64,000 nucleotides of DNA from Eubacteriaceae bacterium ES3 (GTDB lineage Bacteria > Bacillota > Clostridia > Eubacteriales > Eubacteriaceae): positions 614,680 through 678,679 of the forward strand of contig CP130741.1 of the NCBI GenBank assembly GCA_030586155.1, read 5' to 3'. Each line of letters begins with the position of its first letter. Position 1 is the first letter of the stretch. Under the pieces are notes generated by a model. It made no database searches. It saw only the letters and a list, made by a program, of their open reading frames with translations, and was not told the origin of the DNA. Positions 2,523 to 63,546 of the stretch are shown here, piece after piece. The translations under genes and the position numbers were made by a program.

Positions 2523-2668
2523 TTTTATGACTGTTAGTCAGTTCGTTTAATAGTTGGCAGTAGGGGGATAAAATAGATGACCATTGAATCATTTTAAAAG
2601 AGAATGGCTAAAAGTGAATAAATGTATTATAATGAGAATAATAACAGGACGAAAGCTGGAGGTAAAAT

Positions 2669-7492: not shown

Positions 7493-10204
7493 TTAGATTC
7501 CTCCTGATACTTTTATTAATGAATCAGCCGCTGTCTTAACGGCATCTTCAATACGGTCATAGGTTGAAAATACTTTAATTCCCTTTTTTTCAAGCCGAGA
7601 TGAAGGTCCTTCACCAATTCGCATGGAGATTACTCCATCGCAGTCCTCAAGTTCTTTTAAAATTTTATCAATCTTATCTTCTTTATCGTCACAGTTTTCA
7701 ACGCCTTCGCAGTATTTTTTCACGGTTCGCTTTTCTTTGAAAGCGACGGCATCTTCAGCATAGTCGTAAATATAAAGTTCAGTAGCCTGCCCAAAATGCT
7801 GATCAACAAGGATACCACTTTTGGAAACAGTTGCAAATCTTAATGGTTTTTCTTTAGCTTCAATTTTAGCGGGTTCTTCTTTGATTTGTCTGAATTCAAT
7901 CGATAAATCTTCATCAAGTTTTCCGATGGCATCAGCCCGACACTGTTTACAGTGGTACATCTGTTTTAAATGAAGGCCGCATCGGTCGCGAATTTCAGTA
8001 ATTTCAATATTGCTGGCCATTTCCAGGTTTTCAAAGGCACTGCCTTTAACCGGAATCAGTGGCATGATATTGGAAATATAGCAGCCCAAATCGCGCATGG
8101 TCTTAACGACTTCCTCAATATGACCATCATTGATGCCTTTTAAAGTAACGGTATTGATTTTAACGACCACACCCAGGTCAACCAGTTGTTTGATGCCGGC
8201 TAGCTGATTGGCCAGAAGAATGGAAGCAGCAGCTTCGCCGGTATAATGTTTGCCCATGAAATTAACAAATTTATAGATTTTGGCTCCAATGGAAGGGTCA
8301 ACTGCATTGACAGTGACAGTAACATGAGAGACATTTAAGTCTGCCAGCTCCTTAGCATGGTAGGGAAGCATCAGTCCGTTGGTTGAGACACAGAAGGTAA
8401 TATTAGGATCATCCTCATGGATTAGTTCTAAAGCTTTTTTCGTCTCGGAAAAATTAGCCAGGGCATCACCAGGTCCGGCAACACCGATAACAGTCAAATT
8501 TTCAACTTTCTCTTTAACCTGTTTATATTTAGCAAAAGCTTCTTCAGGCGATAATACAGCAGTAGTAACACCAGGTCGACTTTCGTTCATACAATCATAT
8601 TTTCTGACGCAGTAGTTACATTGTATATTACACTTAGGGGCAATAGGAAGATGCATTCGGGAATTCTTCTGTGAAGCGCCACAGTTAAAACAAGGGTGGT
8701 TTGCTGTTTTTTCTTCTAAAGTCATCGCTTTATTAGTCATCTCTACATTTACCTCTTTTTCTTTAGCATCTTTCTCTTCAGGAGCCTCAGCTTCTGCAGG
8801 GGATTCCAGTCCATATTTAGTTTTAGGACCTTCTTCATAATACTTATTGTACAAGTGAGCTCTAAAACCGCCTTCAACTTTTTTAAGAACGGTGTTGGTC
8901 ATTTTATCCAGTAGATTCATCGATCCGTCATATCCAAGGGTGCGAATTCTTTGACCACCAATCTGATCATGAATCGGGAATGCTGTTCGTATTAGGGGAA
9001 TTCCGGTTTTTTCTTCGATTCGACGGGCATCAGAATTCCCTAACATCATGTTTGCTTCGAGTCGAAGGGCTTCAGATTCGATGGTTTCAAAGTCAACATC
9101 ATTTAAGATAACAAATTCTTCAATAAACAGGCGGTCCGCCAGTTTTTGAATAATCGGTTTAATGTGCATTTCAAGCTCCGGTACGTTTGAGCCGGTTGCT
9201 GTAACGACTGGCATAATGCCATTTTCACAACAAAGTTCAACAGCTGCCATCACAAAGTCCGGTTCACCAAAAATAACAACTCGACCTTCGGCATTGTATT
9301 TATGGGAGTCAACCATCCCATCCAGGAAACGGCCGCGGGCTTTCTTGATGGCCTCTGGAATCTCTTTCCCGGAAATTTTGGAAAGAGTTTTAATCAGGGT
9401 ATCAGTATTTTTAAGACCTATTGGCAGGTTTAAGCGCTGATAGGGAATCCCAAATTTTTCATTTAAATAAACGCCTGCGGAAAATTCAGGGCGAATACTG
9501 TTGGAGATTTCCAGAGTATGTCTGGCTCCGCCCATTTTTTTAATGTCTTCAATGCTGGTTCCGTTAGCAGGTAAGCGATCATAGTCGGGTTGGTGAATGC
9601 CATCCAGGTTTTCTGAAAGATCAGGCAGTAAAATGATATCAAGCCCAAAGGCTGCAAACAGATCTTTCAGGTATCGGGTATCAGCAGGAGAGATCATTGA
9701 CGTGATGACATTAATCTTGTTATTTGGCGTGGTATCCATCGGGACATTCTTGACAATGGATTTTATAGTAGCCATATAGCCTTCGAACTGAGTACCGCCA
9801 TAACCGGCTGTTTGAACTGGGATAATGGTCACATCCTGATACTCAGGATGTTCCTGATAGAACTGCTGAATAATAAAAGCAACGTCTTCGCCAATGGTTT
9901 CTGCCAGACAGGTGGTCGAAACACCAATGACTTCCGGACCATAGATTTTAATCAGATTTTCAAGTCCCAGCTTCAAGTTTTTCTCGCCACCGTATACGGT
10001 TCCTTCTTCAGTTAAAGAGGAAGACGCAATATCGACTGGTTCATTATAATGAGTAGCCATATGACGTCTGATATAGGTAGAGCAGCCCTGTGAGCCGTGG
10101 AGCAGGTTCATACATTTTTTAATACCATAGAAGGCATTGGCAGCGCCCATTGGCATACACATTTTACAGGGATTAACATTTAAATTAACAAGATTTTTAG
10201 ACAT
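7493..10204 (-). CDS. nifN-B: NifN-NifB fusion with C-terminal NifX-like domain
   Basis: 903-residue fusion for FeMo-cofactor assembly. Residues 1 to about 445 are NifN (scaffold partner of NifE; CKMCMPMGA, HGSQGCSTY, TTCLAETIGED). A Glu/Lys-rich linker (about 460-500) follows. The radical-SAM NifB domain has CNIQCNYC (CxxxCxxC, about residue 530), which makes the NifB-co core. The last ~120 residues (RFATVSKSGILVDQHFGQA onward) are the NifX/NafY cofactor-carrier domain. Such N-B fusions are known in clostridial nif clusters. Start set at ATG 10204 behind GGAGGT; overlaps nifE by 8 bp. Confidence 0.95.
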   Translation of the reverse strand: MSKNLVNLNVNPCKMCMPMGAANAFYGIKKCMNLLHGSQGCSTYIRRHMATHYNEPVDIASSSLTEEGTVYGGEKNLKLGLENLIKIYGPEVIGVSTTCLAETIGEDVAFIIQQFYQEHPEYQDVTIIPVQTAGYGGTQFEGYMATIKSIVKNVPMDTTPNNKINVITSMISPADTRYLKDLFAAFGLDIILLPDLSENLDGIHQPDYDRLPANGTSIEDIKKMGGARHTLEISNSIRPEFSAGVYLNEKFGIPYQRLNLPIGLKNTDTLIKTLSKISGKEIPEAIKKARGRFLDGMVDSHKYNAEGRVVIFGEPDFVMAAVELCCENGIMPVVTATGSNVPELEMHIKPIIQKLADRLFIEEFVILNDVDFETIESEALRLEANMMLGNSDARRIEEKTGIPLIRTAFPIHDQIGGQRIRTLGYDGSMNLLDKMTNTVLKKVEGGFRAHLYNKYYEEGPKTKYGLESPAEAEAPEEKDAKEKEVNVEMTNKAMTLEEKTANHPCFNCGASQKNSRMHLPIAPKCNIQCNYCVRKYDCMNESRPGVTTAVLSPEEAFAKYKQVKEKVENLTVIGVAGPGDALANFSETKKALELIHEDDPNITFCVSTNGLMLPYHAKELADLNVSHVTVTVNAVDPSIGAKIYKFVNFMGKHYTGEAAASILLANQLAGIKQLVDLGVVVKINTVTLKGINDGHIEEVVKTMRDLGCYISNIMPLIPVKGSAFENLEMASNIEITEIRDRCGLHLKQMYHCKQCRADAIGKLDEDLSIEFRQIKEEPAKIEAKEKPLRFATVSKSGILVDQHFGQATELYIYDYAEDAVAFKEKRTVKKYCEGVENCDDKEDKIDKILKELEDCDGVISMRIGEGPSSRLEKKGIKVFSTYDRIEDAVKTAADSLIKVSGGI

Positions 10205-11552
10205 CTTCAGCACCTCCAATTGTACTCCAAACCGGGCTGTTCATCGAAAGGTTGATTTCTGAGGCGAAGTTAAGTGCGCCCTCATAGCCGGCTAAAGGAT
10301 GCTTTCGTTCATGGTTGTGATCACAGAAGGCTACGCCCAATTTATAGGCAAGGGGTCTTTCTTTTACGCCACCAACCAGGATATCAGCACCTTTTTCACG
10401 CATGAATTTTTCAAGCTCTGCGGGGTTGGCATCATCAAGAATAACAGCGTCTTCCTCAACCAGGTTACCGATTAATTCATAGTCATCTTTGCTACCCGTT
10501 TGGGAACCGACCATGACAGTTTTCATCCCAAATTCATTAAACTGTCTGATTAGTGAAATAGCTTTGAATCCACCACCTACATAGATAGAGGCTTTTTTTC
10601 CGCCCAAATTTTTCTTGTATTTTTCAAGTAAGGGAAGGACACGATGCTCTTCTTCTTTGGTAAACTCTTTTGCTCGTCTAATCACGTCAGGATCTCCGGT
10701 AGCATAAGCGATTCGCATGATCGAATCAGAGGTGTCAGTTACGCCGAAGAAAGAGACTTTTATAAAAGGAATATCATATTCTTCTTCCAGTTTTTTTGCC
10801 AGGTAGGTCATTGATCCGGCACACTGAACCAGATTGAGTTTAGCTTTTGGTGCTTCACGCAGGTTATCAACCGAGGCATCACCAGTGAAGTGAGAAACCA
10901 CATTAACACCGATGCGTCTTAGATAAGATTTCATAATCCACATTTCACCGGCCAGGTTAAAATCTCCTAAAATATTAACCCCATCAACTTTTTCCAGTGG
11001 TTCTTCTGGTGTAATCAGATCCATAATGGCGTTACAGGCCATTTTATAACCAGTTTTTTTGGTTCCGGAGAAGCCTGAAGATTTAACGGGAATAACTTTG
11101 ATATTGTACTTCTCTGAGGCCAGACGACAAACCGCATCCACATCATCACCAATAACGCCGACAATACAAGTAGCATAAATAAAGATAACTTTTGGTGAGT
11201 GAACTTCCATCACTTCGTCGATCGCGGCCGCCAGTTTCTTTTCTCCACCGAAAATTACGTCCTTTTCGCGAAGGTCGGTGGAGTAGCTGTTTCGATAGCC
11301 TTCTTCACCGCTTGAGAGGCTTCCTCTGATATCCCAGGTATAACTGGCACAGCCAATTGGACCATGGACAATATGAAATGCGTCTGTAATGGGATTGAGA
11401 ACGACTCGAGCGCCACAGTAAACACAGGCGCGCTGGCTGATAGCTCCGGAGACGCTCTCAGATTCGCATTTGATACCACTGCCATCGCCACTGCAGCCAG
11501 TTGAACGAATGGACTGTGATCTTTCTGGTAATATATCATTGGCAGTTTTCAT
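10197..11552 (-). CDS. nifE: FeMo-cofactor scaffold protein NifE
   Basis: With NifN forms the scaffold on which NifB-co matures to FeMo-co. Cluster-site residues are seen in RACVYCGARVVLNP, HGPIGCASYTWDIRGS and TCIVGVIGDD. 451 residues from ATG 11552, which follows a perfect AAGGAGG. An open frame extends further upstream but covers the intergenic hairpins and lacks an RBS, so the longer start is rejected. The gene is separated from nifK by 145 bp holding an attenuator-like hairpin. Confidence 0.94.
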   Translation of the reverse strand: MKTANDILPERSQSIRSTGCSGDGSGIKCESESVSGAISQRACVYCGARVVLNPITDAFHIVHGPIGCASYTWDIRGSLSSGEEGYRNSYSTDLREKDVIFGGEKKLAAAIDEVMEVHSPKVIFIYATCIVGVIGDDVDAVCRLASEKYNIKVIPVKSSGFSGTKKTGYKMACNAIMDLITPEEPLEKVDGVNILGDFNLAGEMWIMKSYLRRIGVNVVSHFTGDASVDNLREAPKAKLNLVQCAGSMTYLAKKLEEEYDIPFIKVSFFGVTDTSDSIMRIAYATGDPDVIRRAKEFTKEEEHRVLPLLEKYKKNLGGKKASIYVGGGFKAISLIRQFNEFGMKTVMVGSQTGSKDDYELIGNLVEEDAVILDDANPAELEKFMREKGADILVGGVKERPLAYKLGVAFCDHNHERKHPLAGYEGALNFASEINLSMNSPVWSTIGGAEDV

Positions 11553-11570
11553 TTTAGCCTCCTTATTTAA

Positions 11571-11596
11571 TAAAAACAGGGAGGAAATCCTCCCTG
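11571..11596 (-). terminator. Terminator-like hairpin between nifK and nifE (putative attenuator)
   Basis: On the mRNA strand an 8-9 bp perfect GC-rich stem CAGGGAGG / CCTCCCTG closes on an ATTT loop and is followed at once by TTTTTATT. It lies 18 bases before the nifE start codon. A leaky terminator here would lower nifE and nifN-B relative to nifHDK, fitting the known need for far more structural than scaffold protein. Confidence 0.75.
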
Positions 11597-11605
11597 AGGT
11601 AGAAG

Positions 11606-11661
11606 CGCCGGAAAATTTAGATAAATTAGGAATAAAAGAAACTAGAGGTAATTTACCGGCG
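11606..11661 (-). other. Long-range hairpin in nifK-nifE spacer
   Basis: Arms CGCCGG plus A/T extension at 11656-11661 and 11606-11611 pair across a loop of about 35-40 bases. It lies directly upstream of the terminator-like hairpin on the transcript and might protect the 3' end of the nifHDK message or compete with the terminator. Confidence 0.5.
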
Positions 11662-11697
11662 TAAGAGTTGAGCAGTTTAAATTTTAAATTCAGGGTA

Positions 11698-13068
11698 TTA
11701 CATAACGACTTCGAAATCTTCTTCAGCAGCATCGCGATCCATACGATCCATAATAGCTGTCAGAATCAGTTCGATTAGTCGCATTGCTCCTTTATATCCA
11801 ACAATTGGCATATAAGAGTGTACATAACGGTCAAGGATTGGGAATCCAGCACGAACCAGTGGAATATCTTCGGCACGGGCAATTGCTTTTCCGTAGCTGC
11901 CACCGATTAATACATCAACAGGTTCATTTTTGATCCACTGGTGCATTTCAAAGAGGTCAGAGTTTGCTTTAACGGTAGAACCTTCAATCCCAAATTTTTC
12001 CAGGATTGCATTAGCTCGTTTTTCAAACAGCGATCCAGGCGTTCCGGTAATAACATATTTTGGAATCATTCCAATTTCACAGGCAAGTTGAGTGATACCA
12101 AGTACAGTATCGGGATCTCCGTAGATAGCACAAGTTTTGCCATTTGAATATTGGTTTGAATCCAGCATGATATCCATCAGCTGGCCACGTTCTTCTTCAA
12201 GCGCGTAAGGAACTTCAGTTTTTGAGAATTCATTCAAAGCCATAATGTATTTATCAGTATATTCTACACCTATTGGCAGTGGCAGAGTTTGATAAGCCAC
12301 TTTACATTGTTTTTCTAAAACATCAGCTGGCATTTCACAAGCAATTTCGCCTAAGGCCAGTGACATTTCGCAGTTACCTAAATCTTGAATTTCTTCAACA
12401 GTTGTTCCGCCTTTAGGATACATTTCATAATGATTTCCCATTGGAGCATCCATAACACCGCTGGTATCTGGAAGCATCGTGTAGTCAACACCCATCAGTG
12501 TGGCAATTCTTTTCATTTCACGCATATCACCAGGATTAACAAAGCCAGGGATTAATGCCATTTTGCCATTTTTTTCGCCGGTATTTTCAGAAAGGTATTT
12601 AATAAATCCGGCAATCATGTTAGAATAACCAGTGATATGTGAACCGACATAGCTTGGAGTATTTGTATGAACAACAAATCTTCCTTCGGGAATTTTGCTT
12701 TCATAATCAGTGATATAAGCATTTAAGTCATCACCAATGGTTTCACTCAGGCAAGTGGTGTGAACAGCGATAATTTTTGGGTCATAGATGTCGAAAATAT
12801 TTCGCATTGCTGTTTTTAAGTTGGAACCACCACCGAAAACTGAAGCACCTTCGGTAAATGAGCTTGATGCAGCGATTGCTGGATCTTTGAAATGTCTGGT
12901 CAGGAAGGTTCGATGGTATGAGCAGCATCCCTGTGAACCATGGCTGTGGGGCATACAGCCATAAACACCTAGAGCAGCATACATTGCTCCAACCGGTTGA
13001 CATGTCTTTGCCGGGTTGATTCGCAGGGCTTTACGATCTGCGACTTCTTTAGTTGTGAAATTTAACAT
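11698..13068 (-). CDS. nifK: Nitrogenase molybdenum-iron protein beta chain
   Basis: Beta subunit of dinitrogenase; with NifD binds the P-cluster. The P-cluster cysteines lie in AKTCQPVGA (about residue 22), HGSQGCCSYHR (about 47) and TTCLSETIGDD (about 105). 456 residues: the short clostridial form lacking the ~50-residue N-terminal extension of proteobacterial NifK. Its start overlaps the nifD stop (shared base 13068), giving 1:1 coupling. Confidence 0.96.
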   Translation of the reverse strand: MLNFTTKEVADRKALRINPAKTCQPVGAMYAALGVYGCMPHSHGSQGCCSYHRTFLTRHFKDPAIAASSSFTEGASVFGGGSNLKTAMRNIFDIYDPKIIAVHTTCLSETIGDDLNAYITDYESKIPEGRFVVHTNTPSYVGSHITGYSNMIAGFIKYLSENTGEKNGKMALIPGFVNPGDMREMKRIATLMGVDYTMLPDTSGVMDAPMGNHYEMYPKGGTTVEEIQDLGNCEMSLALGEIACEMPADVLEKQCKVAYQTLPLPIGVEYTDKYIMALNEFSKTEVPYALEEERGQLMDIMLDSNQYSNGKTCAIYGDPDTVLGITQLACEIGMIPKYVITGTPGSLFEKRANAILEKFGIEGSTVKANSDLFEMHQWIKNEPVDVLIGGSYGKAIARAEDIPLVRAGFPILDRYVHSYMPIVGYKGAMRLIELILTAIMDRMDRDAAEEDFEVVM

Positions 13069-14657
13069 TATTCGTTACCTCCTAAGCTGCCGTTCAATGT
13101 TGGTGTTTTTTTCCATGGGGCAGTCAGCATATCCCAGGCTGGAATATGTGTAGCCATGCTTACATCGTTGGCAAAATTGAGAGCACCCTTGAATCCGGCA
13201 TAAGGACCAGAGTAGTCATATGAATGTAACTGTCGAGAAGGAACACCCATTCGTGTAATTACGTATTTGTCTTTGATACCTGAGAAGAAGATGTCAATGC
13301 CAAGTTCTTTAATAAATTGTTCAGTTTCGAAATGGTTGTAGTCATCAGTGATAACTGCGCCATCCATAATATCTTCCCACATACCGTTGTATTCTTCCAT
13401 TGGAATACCATCAGCCCGCAGGGCTTCCAGTTCTTCTTCAGTTAAACGTTCTTTATAGTAGCTTTCGTCTTTTGATACAGTAATACTTTCAATGTTTTTA
13501 GAATCAGCGTCTTGTTTAATGGTTGGAATAACTTCACGACCTTCATAGTCATCACGGTGAGCAAATTCATAGCCGGCTAAAACAGTGTCCACACCTAAAC
13601 TATTTAGCAGATTGATGTAGTGGTGGCTTCGTGAACCCCCAACGTAGATGGCGGCTTTTTTACCTGTAAGTTTTTCTTTACAAGCGGCAATCCCTTGAGC
13701 AATTGATGATTCTTCTTCAGCAATAACTTCTTCAGTTCGTTTTATCAGCTCCGGATCGTTGAAGTATTTGGCAACATCACGGAGTGATTTTTTAGTTGTG
13801 TCAATACCGATAAAGTTAACTTTCATCCAGTCAGTCCCATATTTTGTTTTCATCATTTCAGCGATGTAGTTAATAGAACGGTGACATTGAACAAGATTCA
13901 AGTCGGCAGTATGTGCGTTTTTAAGGGTTGCGTAAGATCCGTCACCAGTCATGATAGAGATAACATTGTAGCCGATTCGTTTTAATAAACGTTCAACTTC
14001 CCAGCCGTCACCACCGATATTGTACTCACCAAGTAAGTTGATGGAGTATTTTACAGGTGCTGCATCACCGGTACCAATGACTTTTTTCATTAAACCGTTA
14101 TTGGCAATATGATGGCCGCCAGATTGGCTAACCCCTTTGTAACCCTCGCAGCTAAATGCCATAACGGTAATCCCGTATTCTTTTTCTGCTTCCGAAGCAA
14201 TCGCGTGAATATCATCACCGATTAGTCCAACCGGACAGGTTGAGGCAATTGCGATACATTCGGGATCAAAAATTTCTACCGCTTCTTTAATTGCCTGTCG
14301 GAGTTTTTTCTCGCCACCGAATACGATGTCGGTTTCCTGCATATCGGTTGATAAGCAGTACTCCAGGAAGGATTTTGTGTCTTCATCACCTTTTGCTTTA
14401 TTACGACGAGTTCCCCAGCTGTAGAAACCACAACCGATAGGACCATGAGTAATGGTTAGAACATCTTTAAGTGGTCCGATAACAACCCCTTTGGCACCGG
14501 CGTAGCAGCAGCCTCGGTTAGTCATGATACCAGGAAGCGTTCTTGTATCGGCAGCAATTACATTAGGTTCGCCTTCTTGAATAGTAATGACATGGTCTTT
14601 TCTATTTTTATATACTTTAGAACTATATTTATCTAATACTTTTTCTCTTGAATCCAA
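13068..14657 (-). CDS. nifD: Nitrogenase molybdenum-iron protein alpha chain
   Basis: Alpha subunit carrying FeMo-co. P-cluster Cys are in NRGCCYAGAKG, GPIGCGFYSWG and STCPVGLIGDD. FeMo-co ligands are the Cys in LVQCHRSINYI and the His in SRQLHSYDYSGPYAGFKGA; the substrate-site His is in SGGHHIANN. 529 residues, including the ~50-residue insertion (about 380-435, Glu/Asp-rich, KDESYYKERLTEEELEAL) seen in clostridial NifD. These features mark a Mo nitrogenase, not V- or Fe-only. Confidence 0.97.
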   Translation of the reverse strand: MDSREKVLDKYSSKVYKNRKDHVITIQEGEPNVIAADTRTLPGIMTNRGCCYAGAKGVVIGPLKDVLTITHGPIGCGFYSWGTRRNKAKGDEDTKSFLEYCLSTDMQETDIVFGGEKKLRQAIKEAVEIFDPECIAIASTCPVGLIGDDIHAIASEAEKEYGITVMAFSCEGYKGVSQSGGHHIANNGLMKKVIGTGDAAPVKYSINLLGEYNIGGDGWEVERLLKRIGYNVISIMTGDGSYATLKNAHTADLNLVQCHRSINYIAEMMKTKYGTDWMKVNFIGIDTTKKSLRDVAKYFNDPELIKRTEEVIAEEESSIAQGIAACKEKLTGKKAAIYVGGSRSHHYINLLNSLGVDTVLAGYEFAHRDDYEGREVIPTIKQDADSKNIESITVSKDESYYKERLTEEELEALRADGIPMEEYNGMWEDIMDGAVITDDYNHFETEQFIKELGIDIFFSGIKDKYVITRMGVPSRQLHSYDYSGPYAGFKGALNFANDVSMATHIPAWDMLTAPWKKTPTLNGSLGGNE

Positions 14658-14672
14658 TTAAATCACCTCTTT

Positions 14673-15056
14673 CTAAAATGCATCAGCATGCTGTTCGCCG
14701 CTACGCACTCGGATTGATTCATCGATTGGGAGAACAAAAATTTTGCCATCTCCCGGATTACCAGTGGTATTTGCATCCATAATGATGGATACAACCTGAT
14801 CCACATCATTATCTTCGACAATTAATGTAAAGAATCTTTTTGAGATGAGCCGAGAGGACTCGGTCATAGATTCACTAACATCTGATAATGGCATCTCACC
14901 TGATGCGACAATGTCGTTGACTAAGGATAAATCGATGGATTTTTTTCCTCGACCAAGGACTTTTAAACAGGTGAATGCGGGAAAACCTTCGGCAACCAGG
15001 GCTTCTTTAGTCTGATTAACCTTGTTCTGTCTAATAATAGCCATAACTTCTTTCAT
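14673..15056 (-). CDS. nifI2: PII-like nitrogenase regulator NifI2
   Basis: 127-residue PII-family (GlnB-like) protein. MKEVMAIIRQNKVNQTKEAL and the C-terminal GNPGDGKIFVLPIDESIRVRSGE match NifI2; the T-loop (about residues 40-65) differs from GlnB and lacks the uridylylated Tyr context. In methanogens and clostridia NifI1/NifI2 bind dinitrogenase and switch it off with ammonium, relieved by 2-oxoglutarate. Lies between nifI1 and nifD, the standard order. Confidence 0.93.
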   Translation of the reverse strand: MKEVMAIIRQNKVNQTKEALVAEGFPAFTCLKVLGRGKKSIDLSLVNDIVASGEMPLSDVSESMTESSRLISKRFFTLIVEDNDVDQVVSIIMDANTTGNPGDGKIFVLPIDESIRVRSGEQHADAF

Positions 15057-15078
15057 CTGGTTCCTCCTTCACAAGACC

Positions 15079-15405
15079 TTAAAGTCCTGCTTTTCCTGTA
15101 CTGATTGTATAAGCCTCTTCAACTGGAGAAACAAAGATACGTCCATCTCCAAAAGTTCCTGCTTCGCCGGTTTTGGCATTTTTAAGAATTACGCGAACCA
15201 GATCATCTTTATCAGCATCTTCAATAATTGTTAAAAGCATTACTTTGGGGATTTCGTCATAATGAACTTCACCCACTTTAATTCCTTTTTGTTTACCACG
15301 TCCGTAAACATCCAGTTTTGTAACAGCCGGGAAACCAGCATCCAACATTTCCGATAAAATAACTCCAGCTTTTTCAGGTCGAATAATAGCTCTTACCATT
15401 AACAT
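15079..15405 (-). CDS. nifI1: PII-like nitrogenase regulator NifI1
   Basis: 108 residues, PII fold. MLMVRAIIRPEKAGVILSEM, the YGRGKQKGIKVGEVHYDEIPK loop and GTFGDGRIFVSPVEEAYTI are typical. Partner of NifI2 in post-translational nitrogenase switch-off. 21 bp after nifH. Confidence 0.93.
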   Translation of the reverse strand: MLMVRAIIRPEKAGVILSEMLDAGFPAVTKLDVYGRGKQKGIKVGEVHYDEIPKVMLLTIIEDADKDDLVRVILKNAKTGEAGTFGDGRIFVSPVEEAYTISTGKAGL

Positions 15406-15426: not shown

Positions 15427-16284
<858 letters not shown>

Positions 16285-16294
16285 CTACGGATAT

Positions 16295-16341
16295 AAAAAC
16301 ACGAGGCCTTTTCGTTTTGCGAAAAAGACCTCGTTGTCTTT
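16295..16341 (-). promoter_or_regulatory. nif leader module 3: A1/G4 hexaloop hairpin overlapping an intrinsic terminator
   Basis: On the transcript a 6-bp stem AAAGAC / GTCTTT closes the hexaloop AACGAG (16324-16341). The 3' arm and loop are also the 5' arm of a longer stem (ACGAGG...CCTCGT, 16301-16334) followed by GTTTTTAT. The two structures exclude each other. ANTAR-domain antiterminators bind hexaloops with A at position 1 and G at 4, exactly as here. The upstream partner hairpin is weak (CAG/CTG around CTAAGC). This is the module nearest nifH and the best terminator. Confidence 0.75.
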
Positions 16342-16428
16342 GCAGTGGCTTAGCCTGTATTACAGCTGGTACTGGCAGCAATTTGTAGTGCCGGCTGTAA
16401 AAGTTTTGGTCAAACGGTTTGTAAACGC

Positions 16429-16476
16429 AATGAAGTCTTGGAGTTTTTTATAAAACATCCAAGACTTCATTGTCTT
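16429..16476 (-). promoter_or_regulatory. nif leader module 2: A1/G4 hexaloop hairpin overlapping a perfect 14-bp stem
   Basis: AAGAC / GTCTT closes the hexaloop AATGAA (16461-16476). The same bases begin a perfect 14-bp hairpin (arms 16429-16442 and 16458-16471, loop of about 15). The U-tract after it is weak (GCGTTTAC), so it may terminate poorly or act by pausing. Confidence 0.65.
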
Positions 16477-16487
16477 ACTGTGGTTAA

Positions 16488-16539
16488 ACAAAAGGTCTTA
16501 GAAAGCTCCGTGTAGGGAGCTGACTAAGACCTCTTTGTC
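16488..16539 (-). promoter_or_regulatory. nif leader module 1: A1/G4 hexaloop hairpin overlapping a terminator-like stem
   Basis: GAC / GTC closes the hexaloop AAAGAG (16528-16539), a weaker 3-bp version. The overlapping hairpin pairs AGGTCTTAG with CTAAGACCT with an inner AGCTCC / GGAGCT stem, then TTTTGTTT. It is the promoter-proximal of the three related modules. Confidence 0.65.
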
Positions 16540-16576
16540 GTTTGCCGTTTCCGTATGTGTTTGTTTTCTTGGTCAT

Positions 16577-16605
16577 ATTATCCATGTTTGAGGATTAAAA
16601 GTCAA
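16577..16605 (-). promoter_or_regulatory. Sigma-70-type promoter of the nif operon
   Basis: -35 TTGACT at 16600-16605 and -10 GATAAT at 16577-16582 with exact 17-bp spacing. Predicted start at about 16570 gives a ~320-nt leader before nifH. No sigma-54 -24/-12 element is seen, so control is probably by the leader rather than by NifA. Confidence 0.75.
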
Positions 16606-16799: not shown

Positions 16800-17759
16800 T
16801 CAACCGCTGTGACTGCAGCTTGAACAGCTGGAACAGTCGCCACAACCAGATATTTGAGGTTCTTCTACCAGGATGCTTTTGATAATGTCCTTAATAAAAA
16901 GGGTGTAGGCGGTGTTGTTTTGTCTGATAAATACTTCATCCGTATCAAAACGAATAATTAATGGGTTGGGAACAGAAACCTCAGGATTGATCATTGATGG
17001 GATCATTAAAGCCTTGATCAGGATTTCTTCACCGGACAGTATGGCCTGGATTCCTGAGTGGATCGTTTTAAGTGCCTGAATAGCGCCTTCTTTTTTATAA
17101 ACAACCGAATTGATATCGCAGTTAATACCATGGGCATTGGGGTCGAAGGCCAGAATTACACCAGCAGGGGTTGTCAGTGGTTCGGGAATGGCTGGTTCAA
17201 AACTATGGAGTGTACCATCTTCATATAGTGAAAAGCCAAAACGGCATTTTACCGGACCGTCTGGACTGTTGAGTTCAATCATTTGCCCTGGCCAGATCGT
17301 CAGGCTTTTAAGGGCACCAGATTCGTAAAAAGAAAAAGAGATAATTTTAGCAGTGATGGTACCAACAGTCAGCTCCAAAGTATAGGGCGTGGTTAATGCG
17401 GCTTCATCTTCTTCACTCCAGTAGCCACTGATTTGTCCGTTTAATGGAAACAGGCGATGCAACTTTCCCGATGGATAGAAGCTTAACCGTTCTGCCGGAA
17501 AGCTTCCAAAAAGAGTTTCGATTATAACAGAATCCTCAAGATTAATGGCTTTGATTTCGCCGTTATCAAAAAACTCCAGGTCATAGCCATTTCTTTTTCT
17601 GACGTTAACTTCACCATAGGCAGGAACCAAATCGCCGTAATCAGTGTTTAAAGTAAAAGGCTCTTCAAATTTGCAGGCTTTAATCATTCCGGACTCATAG
17701 GTCGTTACGTGTTTTATTCCAGTTAGTGTTCCATAATTGGGGTGGGTGTAGGTACTCAT
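16800..17759 (-). CDS. Unknown protein with repeated Tyr-x-Ser/Asp-Gly motifs and a Cys-rich tail, upstream of nif
   Basis: 319 residues, not recognised. It contains about five repeats of a short beta-hairpin-like motif of type F/Y-Y/F-x-S/D/N-G-x-L/I-K/H (YESGMIKA, FFDNGEIKA, FYPSGKLHR, FYESGALKS, LYEDGTLHS), spaced 40-60 residues apart, so probably an all-beta repeat protein. The C-terminus ends in CGDCSSCSSCSHSG: four Cys and a His within 14 residues, a likely metal or cluster site. No signal peptide or membrane segment. Starts with an ATGA overlap with the AnfO-like gene, so both form one unit just upstream of the nif promoter. Confidence 0.75.
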   Translation of the reverse strand: MSTYTHPNYGTLTGIKHVTTYESGMIKACKFEEPFTLNTDYGDLVPAYGEVNVRKRNGYDLEFFDNGEIKAINLEDSVIIETLFGSFPAERLSFYPSGKLHRLFPLNGQISGYWSEEDEAALTTPYTLELTVGTITAKIISFSFYESGALKSLTIWPGQMIELNSPDGPVKCRFGFSLYEDGTLHSFEPAIPEPLTTPAGVILAFDPNAHGINCDINSVVYKKEGAIQALKTIHSGIQAILSGEEILIKALMIPSMINPEVSVPNPLIIRFDTDEVFIRQNNTAYTLFIKDIIKSILVEEPQISGCGDCSSCSSCSHSG

Positions 17760-33517: not shown

Positions 33518-33600
33518 CACACGAAAAAGGCAAATTCAATGAAAATTGGAGACGCAAAGCTCTGAGTCTAAGGTTTGTGGTTGATTTTTGCAAATTATGA
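33518..33600 (+). ncRNA. c-di-GMP-I (GEMM) riboswitch
   Basis: Conserved elements in order: AAGGCAAA (33527-33534), a hairpin with GAAA tetraloop (CAAT-GAAA-ATTG), GACGCAAAGC (33551-33560) and GAGTCTAAGG (about 33564-33573) as tetraloop receptor, then a second helix. This is the GEMM-I core. A terminator hairpin follows within 10 bases, so the ligand should control read-through into the exopolysaccharide operon. I could not resolve the antiterminator pairing, so ON or OFF is open. Confidence 0.9.
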
Positions 33601-33605
33601 TTGTC

Positions 33606-33632
33606 AAGCTACCAAAAATGGTAGCTTTTTTT
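33606..33632 (+). terminator. Intrinsic terminator, riboswitch expression platform
   Basis: AAGCTACCA / TGGTAGCTT stem with AAAA loop and seven Ts, between the aptamer and the first gene of the operon (starts 33715). Confidence 0.88.
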
Positions 33633-63360: not shown

Positions 63361-63403
63361 TGGTAGGGGTCGCTGGTTCAAGTCCAGTCGGGATCACCAT
63401 TTA
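63361..63403 (+). repeat. attR: 43-bp copy of the tRNA-Val 3' end
   Basis: Identical to 28134-28176 but without the 5' half of the tRNA, so it is not a functional gene. It marks the right edge of the island. Confidence 0.92.
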
Positions 63404-63411
63404 TGAATCAT

Positions 63412-63436
63412 AACGCCGTTTAGGGCGTTTTTTTAT
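63412..63436 (+). terminator. Terminator beyond attR (presumed original tRNA-Val terminator)
   Basis: AACGCC / GGCGTT stem followed by seven Ts, 9 bases beyond the tRNA fragment. In the uninvaded chromosome it would follow the tRNA. Confidence 0.8.
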
Positions 63437-63451
63437 TTTTTGATTTTCACA

Positions 63452-63480
63452 TTGCAGGTATAAGTAGTTAGGTGTAAAAT
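63452..63480 (+). promoter_or_regulatory. Promoter of the thioredoxin-like gene
   Basis: TTGCAG (63452-63457), 17-bp spacer, TAAAAT (63475-63480). Gives a leader of about 120 nt. Confidence 0.6.
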
Positions 63481-63546
63481 TTTTTTAATATTGTATATAA
63501 ACTTTGTTAGCTATCGAGCTAAACTAGTTAATAAAATGAAAGGACT

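Follow-up and report, generated by a model that had tools for sequence, protein, structure and literature searches.

The leader upstream of nifH in the window (the whole 64,000-nucleotide stretch of DNA that was analysed) is probably a stack of attenuators, each centred on a single hexaloop hairpin, by which a NitR-like ANTAR protein would antiterminate nif transcription under nitrogen scarcity. This reading draws on features obtained here by computation: the anatomy of the leader, its conservation, covariation in the terminator helix, the absence of an upstream hexaloop hairpin (P1) before the hexaloop hairpin that overlaps the terminator (P2), an apparent nitrogen regulon and a single ANTAR gene in the genome.

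Anatomy of the nif leader

The leader lies on the minus strand, and its transcription would begin near 16570, as judged from the position of a predicted promoter. Its features, together with those of the presumed operon, are as follows.

16577-16605, minus strand: predicted sigma-A promoter, TTGACT-N17-GATAAT (sequence, aligned genus leaders, promoter score)
16528-16539, minus strand: module 1 P2 hairpin, GAC(AAAGAG)GTC (sequence)
16486-16535, minus strand: module 1 terminator, hairpin 16535-16490 with U-tract to about 16486 (terminator scan, folding energy)
16460-16477, minus strand: module 2 P2 hairpin, TAAGAC(AATGAA)GTCTTG (sequence)
16428-16472, minus strand: module 2 long hairpin, without a U-tract (sequence, folding energy)
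16360-16400, minus strand: extra stem-loop TTACAGC...GCTGTAA, between modules 2 and 3 (leader alignment)
16324-16341, minus strand: module 3 P2 hairpin, AAAGAC(AACGAG)GTCTTT (sequence)
16295-16334, minus strand: module 3 terminator, hairpin 16334-16301 with U-tract to 16295 (terminator scan, folding energy)
15427-16248, minus strand: nifH, first gene after the leader (TIGR01287 above cut-off)
7493-15405, minus strand: rest of the presumed operon, with two P-II family genes, nifD, nifK, nifE and a NifN-like/NifB fusion (family matches)

The initial annotation had described three hairpins with A1/G4 hexaloops on GAC/GTC stems, each overlapping the 5' arm of a longer hairpin, and this is what the minus strand holds: in each of the three modules, the 3' arm of P2 is also the 5' arm of the long hairpin. 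The long hairpins have energies of -27.7 (T1), -26.2 (T2) and -18.2 (T3) kcal/mol, and the small P2 hairpins alone reach -2.0, -4.2 and -4.0 kcal/mol in modules 1, 2 and 3, respectively, so much weaker that the small form would need stabilising in order to win. The last long hairpin had been called a textbook terminator, a description borne out by the energy of T3 and by its U-tract, which runs to 16295. Of the three serial terminator switches further proposed, modules 1 and 3 are U-tailed and module 2 is not; T2 is followed by GCGTTTAC, which fails the U-tract criterion, and in the window the terminator scan picks up modules 1 and 3 alone, so that two of the three hairpins are convincing as terminators in this genome. 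The extra stem-loop between modules 2 and 3 is present in the window and in a sister metagenome-assembled genome (L158) and absent from the other aligned leaders. Within the operon, the NifN-like and NifB parts are fused in a single 908-residue ORF (7493-10219, minus strand), whose NifN match falls below the curated cut-off.

The leader has no Rfam match at gathering scores. Below those scores, 13 matches were obtained between 16000 and 17000 (best E 0.061, to a microRNA family); these being weak and mostly to microRNA families, a riboswitch or T-box leader was rejected. Elsewhere in the window, a c-di-GMP-I riboswitch lies at 33519-33616 (plus strand), and HPnc0260 matches above its gathering score at 63361-63511 (minus strand), where the matching 3' part resembles, on inspection, a tRNA in antisense, so that this match is probably not a separate RNA.

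Conservation of the stacked modules

The genus, apparently Acetobacterium, was searched in 19 genomes, 18 of which have a nifH-like gene. The promoter and at least three modules are kept in all 16 genus leaders examined, including that of the window, and the conservation among related nif leaders that had been set as a check on the earlier claims was thus found. A covariance model gave three matches in 15 of these 16 leaders and four in the remaining one (G003); in G006 the leader lies on a contig separate from that of nifH and was attributed by similarity. A single match came from each of G009 and G011, where it sits on a small contig or at the end of one, and G007, which is without nifH, gave zero. 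For two leaders (L163, L164), the stricter scan detects two modules and the covariance model three.

Across the genus leaders the promoter is constant, its distance to module 1 is nearly constant, and the modules are usually spaced by 73-83 nt. The window and the sister genome differ in having spacings of about 65 and 135-136 nt, the extra stem-loop and a second hairpin without a U-tract. One spacing of 66 occurs in L163, and in the G003 leader (L151) the four modules ahead of nifH are separated by 66, 244 and 73, the gap of about 244 nt falling between the second and third. In other Clostridia, nifH is preceded by one- and two-module versions.

The first transcribed stretch (about 16545-16576 in the window, with its counterpart in L149-L164) is also strongly conserved, reading GCCCATAGAAAACAATGNNATACGGATT in most genus leaders. 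The box CATAGAAA is common to most genus leaders and is also found in some distant ones; starts resembling it occur in some Lachnospiraceae nif leaders and in a leader of the same genome upstream of a URO-D family gene (L109). As a substitute for P1, this conserved 5' box by the predicted start was rejected, since it occurs in 9 of 79 leaders against 6.5 expected and is not enriched.

Absence of the P1 hairpin

The initial annotation had judged the upstream hairpin of each pair to be weak and had proposed a variant recognition element. The variant part of that proposal holds, but P1 is absent across the regulon, at the level of chance, rather than weak. In a scan for an upstream hexaloop hairpin with A1 and G4, run against shuffles on three partly overlapping sets of modules, such a hairpin preceded 2 of 43 nif modules (1.6 in shuffles), 0 of 46 genus nif modules (1.5) and 1 of 32 modules of other targets (0.7), and none was found before the three modules of the window. 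The two nif sets both contain the window, and five genomes of one are probably identical with L002-L005 and L012 of the other. The set of other targets left out L167, L170, L171, L176, L177, L182, L199, L202, L206 and L209; among these, L170 and L171 are near copies of L168 and L169, L199 is close to L196 and L198, and L206 is a nif leader. Two further loci (L173, L197) entered this set and gave no strict module.

The room available before P2 points the same way. A good predicted promoter was found for 43 of 55 first modules, against 15.6 in shuffles, a background by which some predicted start sites may be due to chance; in L151, L163 and L164 a later module was used in place of the first. Among these 43 leaders, 11 would have RNA of at most 13 nt before P2, too short for a P1. 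One of these 11 belongs to a methyltransferase operon of the same genome (L086), where TTGACA-17-TAAAAT would place the start about 7 nt before P2. The Acetobacterium nif leaders leave about 30 nt before P2, yet carry no P1.

The foremost alternative is that these are ordinary dual-hairpin ANTAR sites in which P1 was missed, being short or having another loop size or other letters, and we regard it as unlikely. EutV is reported to require P1 in vivo (PMC3369931, PMC8934654), and real-looking exceptions do exist: a genuine A..G P1 is present in the Clostridium paridis leader L007 and in L109. Hairpins whose loops differ lie upstream in L017 and L030 (both strong), before module 3 of L003 (a pentaloop) and in leaders of corrinoid-protein (MttC) genes. 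In the latter (L084, L166, L169, L171), a UUCCAA..UUGGAA hairpin lies directly before P2, and its loop is not an ANTAR hexaloop. A degenerate P1 may be present in L017, L030 and the MttC leaders. Against a general oversight stand the shuffle-level frequency of upstream A..G hexaloops, the absence of an A1/G4 hexaloop from the remaining upstream hairpins, and the 11 leaders with too little room. A similar scan does detect a canonical pair, although in only one of four EutV-like loci: run as a control on these four and one NitR-like locus, it found a single canonical pair with an 8-bp P1 at L185 (eut-like, from a congener) and none in the other three EutV-like loci or in the NitR-like locus.

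A related idea, that the hexaloop of one module acts as P1 for the next, is also unlikely, because the modules of the window lie 65-136 nt apart and adding 20 nt to the linker is reported to abolish EutV antitermination (PMC8934654).

Other leaders that carry the module

The covariance model was built from 35 modules. With 150 of 3822 first-look candidates scored, the search of the window's own genome returned five matches at E < 3e-4, namely the three nif modules, C1:1186814 and C1:1179556; the next match among the scored candidates had an E of 0.12, with none other below 0.1. Both additional sites head operons that encode a corrinoid protein together with MttB-like methyltransferases (MttC/MttB, assigned by Pfam matches above cut-off and NCBIfam equivalogs below theirs), and one of the two leaders has two consecutive modules. 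An IS256-family transposase lies between these two operons (L095, 9234-10445, minus strand). A pattern search added C1:2950519, before the URO-D family gene of L109. It gave 13 rows at 8 distinct places, and a backward control pattern gave 15 rows, so that the pattern alone proves little; three of the 8 places were already known and L109 was read. A module at the organism's own glnA was rejected, the site having by eye no more than a weak AAC(AAAGGC)GTT-like hairpin. In the leader of the second, GSIII-like glutamine synthetase, a terminator bears the hexaloop hairpin AGC(AATGGT)GCT (L082, about 2610-2660, minus strand), which is a candidate only.

In relatives, modules precede P-II genes (L184, L195; P-II is a later gene in L178 and L179), AmtB (L181, L198), glutamine synthetase (L210), amino-acid permeases (L172, L175), an ornithine cyclodeaminase-like gene (L180), a dicarboxylate symporter (L183), URO-D (L174) and corrinoid protein genes (L165, L166, L168). 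Among 20 loci examined, L167, L177 and L182 are without a strict module, L176 is doubtful, and the hexaloop of L173 sits inside the loop of another terminator. Taken as a whole, the target set looks like a nitrogen regulon.

The candidate ANTAR regulator

The profile search found no ANTAR gene within the window, as had been stated earlier, and a single match in the genome outside it (C1:163150, E 3.9e-15). This gene lies directly behind a glutamine synthetase gene, a position which fits the name NitR, given to a clostridial antiterminator of ammonia assimilation (PMC4676874). The initial reading of the leader as an ANTAR target appears well supported by conservation, by the nitrogen regulon and by this single gene behind glnA.

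In an alignment of NitR-like and EutV-like proteins, in which some rows repeat the same genomes and positions were read against the EutV residue numbers of PMC8934654, the phospho-acceptor position is Asn in the organism's own protein and in 12 of 13 NitR-like rows (Cys in the other) and Asp in 8 of 8 EutV-like rows. The position presumed to stack on G4 is His in 13 of 13 NitR-like rows and Tyr in 8 of 8 EutV-like rows. As read from the alignment, EutV Met172 and Lys147 correspond to Met and Arg in the own protein, and the RNA-contact residues Arg142 and Lys143 to Leu and Gly, a difference that speaks against the preferred reading. With Asn at the phospho-acceptor position, the protein is probably a pseudo-receiver. 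The initial annotation had envisaged an ANTAR protein with a partner kinase: the ANTAR gene exists, but for a regulator with an Asn-bearing, pseudo-receiver-like domain such a kinase is not expected, and by eye none was recognised among the ORFs near the gene (L082). Nitrogen might be sensed through contact with glutamine synthetase or a P-II protein, which is a guess on our part.

Among 137 Clostridia genomes, the model matched (E 0.001) in 16, at least one of which (G068) shows no strict module; an ANTAR match was present in 13 of these 16 and in 60 of the 121 others (one-sided p 0.015, a value that ignores kinship among the genomes). In the organism's own family, 26 of 40 genomes have model matches and 38 of 40 an ANTAR match, so that co-occurrence there has little power. 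Two genomes (G131, G070) have credible modules, yet no ANTAR gene was found in them, as would be the case if the modules were read by a non-ANTAR RNA-binding protein or a trans-acting RNA. We consider such a reader improbable, considering that the loop rule, the overlap with a terminator and the target genes match ANTAR systems (PMC3369931) and that an ANTAR gene adjoins the glutamine synthetase gene in the window's own genome.

Hexaloops and terminators compared with chance

The association of hexaloop and terminator was assessed with the pattern [AG]AC-N6-GT[CT], the loop left free, overlapping a U-tailed helix. In 80 nifH leaders, including that of the window and partly non-independent, 41 such hairpins were found against 1.08 expected from first-order Markov shuffles. 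Their loops are of the A..G (33), G..G (7) and A..A (1) classes. Of the loop rule given in the initial annotation, G4 thus held in the window and in 40 of the 41 hairpins, whereas position 1, which is A in the window, is A or G in relatives. That the GAC-N6-GTC element is the DNA operator palindrome of a repressor, as its palindromic stem letters might suggest, is scarcely credible given the asymmetric loop with its G4 and the tie of the site to the 5' arm of the terminator.

A terminator scan blind to the hexaloop gave a consistent picture. In leaders L002-L081, an R..G hexaloop on such a stem was present in 25 of 44 terminators and in 18 of the 33 leaders that bear a terminator. In the window and five other loci it was present in 4 of 64, these being two nif terminators and two terminators of methyltransferase leaders; two further terminators had a different loop class, and none of the 60 terminators outside target leaders had an R..G hexaloop of this form. 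We likewise give almost no credence to the idea that the modules just end transcription of the upstream gene (16800-17759) and take no part in regulation. Two of them do make good terminators, but the modules lie between a conserved promoter and nifH, and this zero count among other terminators also speaks against the idea.

Across 35 modules from many Clostridia, the terminator helix shows covariation at 9 of 12 pairs. No covariation was found in the P2 stem, where 81.5% of cells are paired against 82.4% in shuffles; this stem hardly varies, and the 35 rows were picked by a pattern that fixes the stem and loop letters.

Discussion

The preferred reading of the nif leader, as stacked one-hexaloop attenuators, can be put as a sequence of events. 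Transcription would begin at the sigma-A promoter, which lies some 40 bases before module 1. In the default state the long hairpins would fold, and the U-tracts of modules 1 and 3 would be where transcription ends. Under nitrogen shortage, the NitR-like ANTAR protein encoded behind glutamine synthetase would bind each P2 hexaloop, and the bound P2 would keep the 5' arm of the terminator occupied, so that polymerase could continue into nif. Recognition in each module would depend on one hexaloop (a purine at position 1, G4 and GAC/GTC closure), without an upstream P1, and terminators placed in series would multiply leakage down and induction up. We infer that NitR binds, that nitrogen is the signal, that one hexaloop is enough for antitermination and that stacking is of use.

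The dual-hairpin definition of ANTAR sites comprises two hexaloop hairpins with A1/G4 and stems of at least 3 bp, set a short linker apart, with terminator overlap as an extra screen only (PMC3369931). The window has P2, the terminator overlap and an ANTAR protein in its genome, and lacks P1. Like the Enterococcus faecalis eut operon controlled by EutV (PMC3369931, PMC8934654), the leader combines A1/G4 hexaloops over terminators, an ANTAR protein and several attenuators per operon. Unlike it, the leader has one hexaloop per module and a regulator whose receiver is without Asp; EutV depends on a kinase-driven Asp receiver and on two hexaloops separated by a linker of 5-12 nt, and loss of P1 or alteration of that linker impairs induction. 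In the structure of EutV, a tyrosine provides the surface on which G4 stacks, and A1 has no specific contact with the protein (PMC8934654); the G4 and the purine at position 1 of our modules agree with this.

The AmiR protein of Pseudomonas aeruginosa (PDB 1qo0; PMC8934654) is likewise a pseudo-receiver ANTAR protein, and the sequence match with it covers residues 112-199 of the own protein. AmiR differs in being under the control of AmiC and is counted with the dual-hairpin systems (PMC3369931). The NitR of Clostridium acetobutylicum resembles the own regulator in its link to ammonia assimilation, with the own gene behind glutamine synthetase; neither an RNA target of NitR nor a connection to nif was found in the literature searched, including PMC4676874, where NitR is named.

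ANTAR control of nitrogenase and other nitrogen genes was predicted in 2012 for Pelobacter carbinolicus and Desulfotomaculum acetoxidans, with 13 elements in six transcription units of one species (PMC3369931). The link to nif and the repetition of elements are therefore not new. The regulons predicted there resemble the present one in their nitrogen genes, nitrogenase included, and in having several elements per unit. They differ in that they came from a dual-hairpin model, whereas the modules described here are without the first hairpin and extend to corrinoid methyltransferase operons.

A single hexaloop was proposed in 2022 as the minimal ANTAR binding motif (PMC8934654), and the modules of the window each present such a motif, one loop with G4. 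In the model of that study, P1 is a recruitment hairpin, needed since polymerase leaves little time; where polymerase sets no such limit, sites with a single hexaloop may occur, and more bioinformatic and experimental work was said to be needed on the role of single hexaloops. In the titles and abstracts searched, a scope that excluded subscription papers, we found no one-hexaloop attenuators, no NitR control of clostridial nif and no ANTAR-controlled methyltransferase operons. What is new is an apparent one-hexaloop attenuator regulon, something the current model would not anticipate while transcription is under way, together with genus-wide stacking and methyltransferase targets.

We are evenly divided over a broader proposal, in which NitR-type ANTAR proteins would form a second mechanistic class that acts on a single hexaloop, with no P1 recruitment hairpin and no phosphorylation, even where P2 is the first RNA to leave the polymerase. 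Acetobacterium would then stack three or four such sites as gain control for nitrogenase, in a regulon that includes corrinoid methyltransferase operons.

In summary, these leaders appear to be attenuators that work under the time limit set by polymerase, with one hexaloop each and in leaders as short as a single hairpin, so that small constructs can test the model. The leader gives a concrete candidate for the switch that governs nitrogen fixation in acetogens and in other clostridia, and it suggests serial attenuators as a means of tightening the expression of a costly enzyme.
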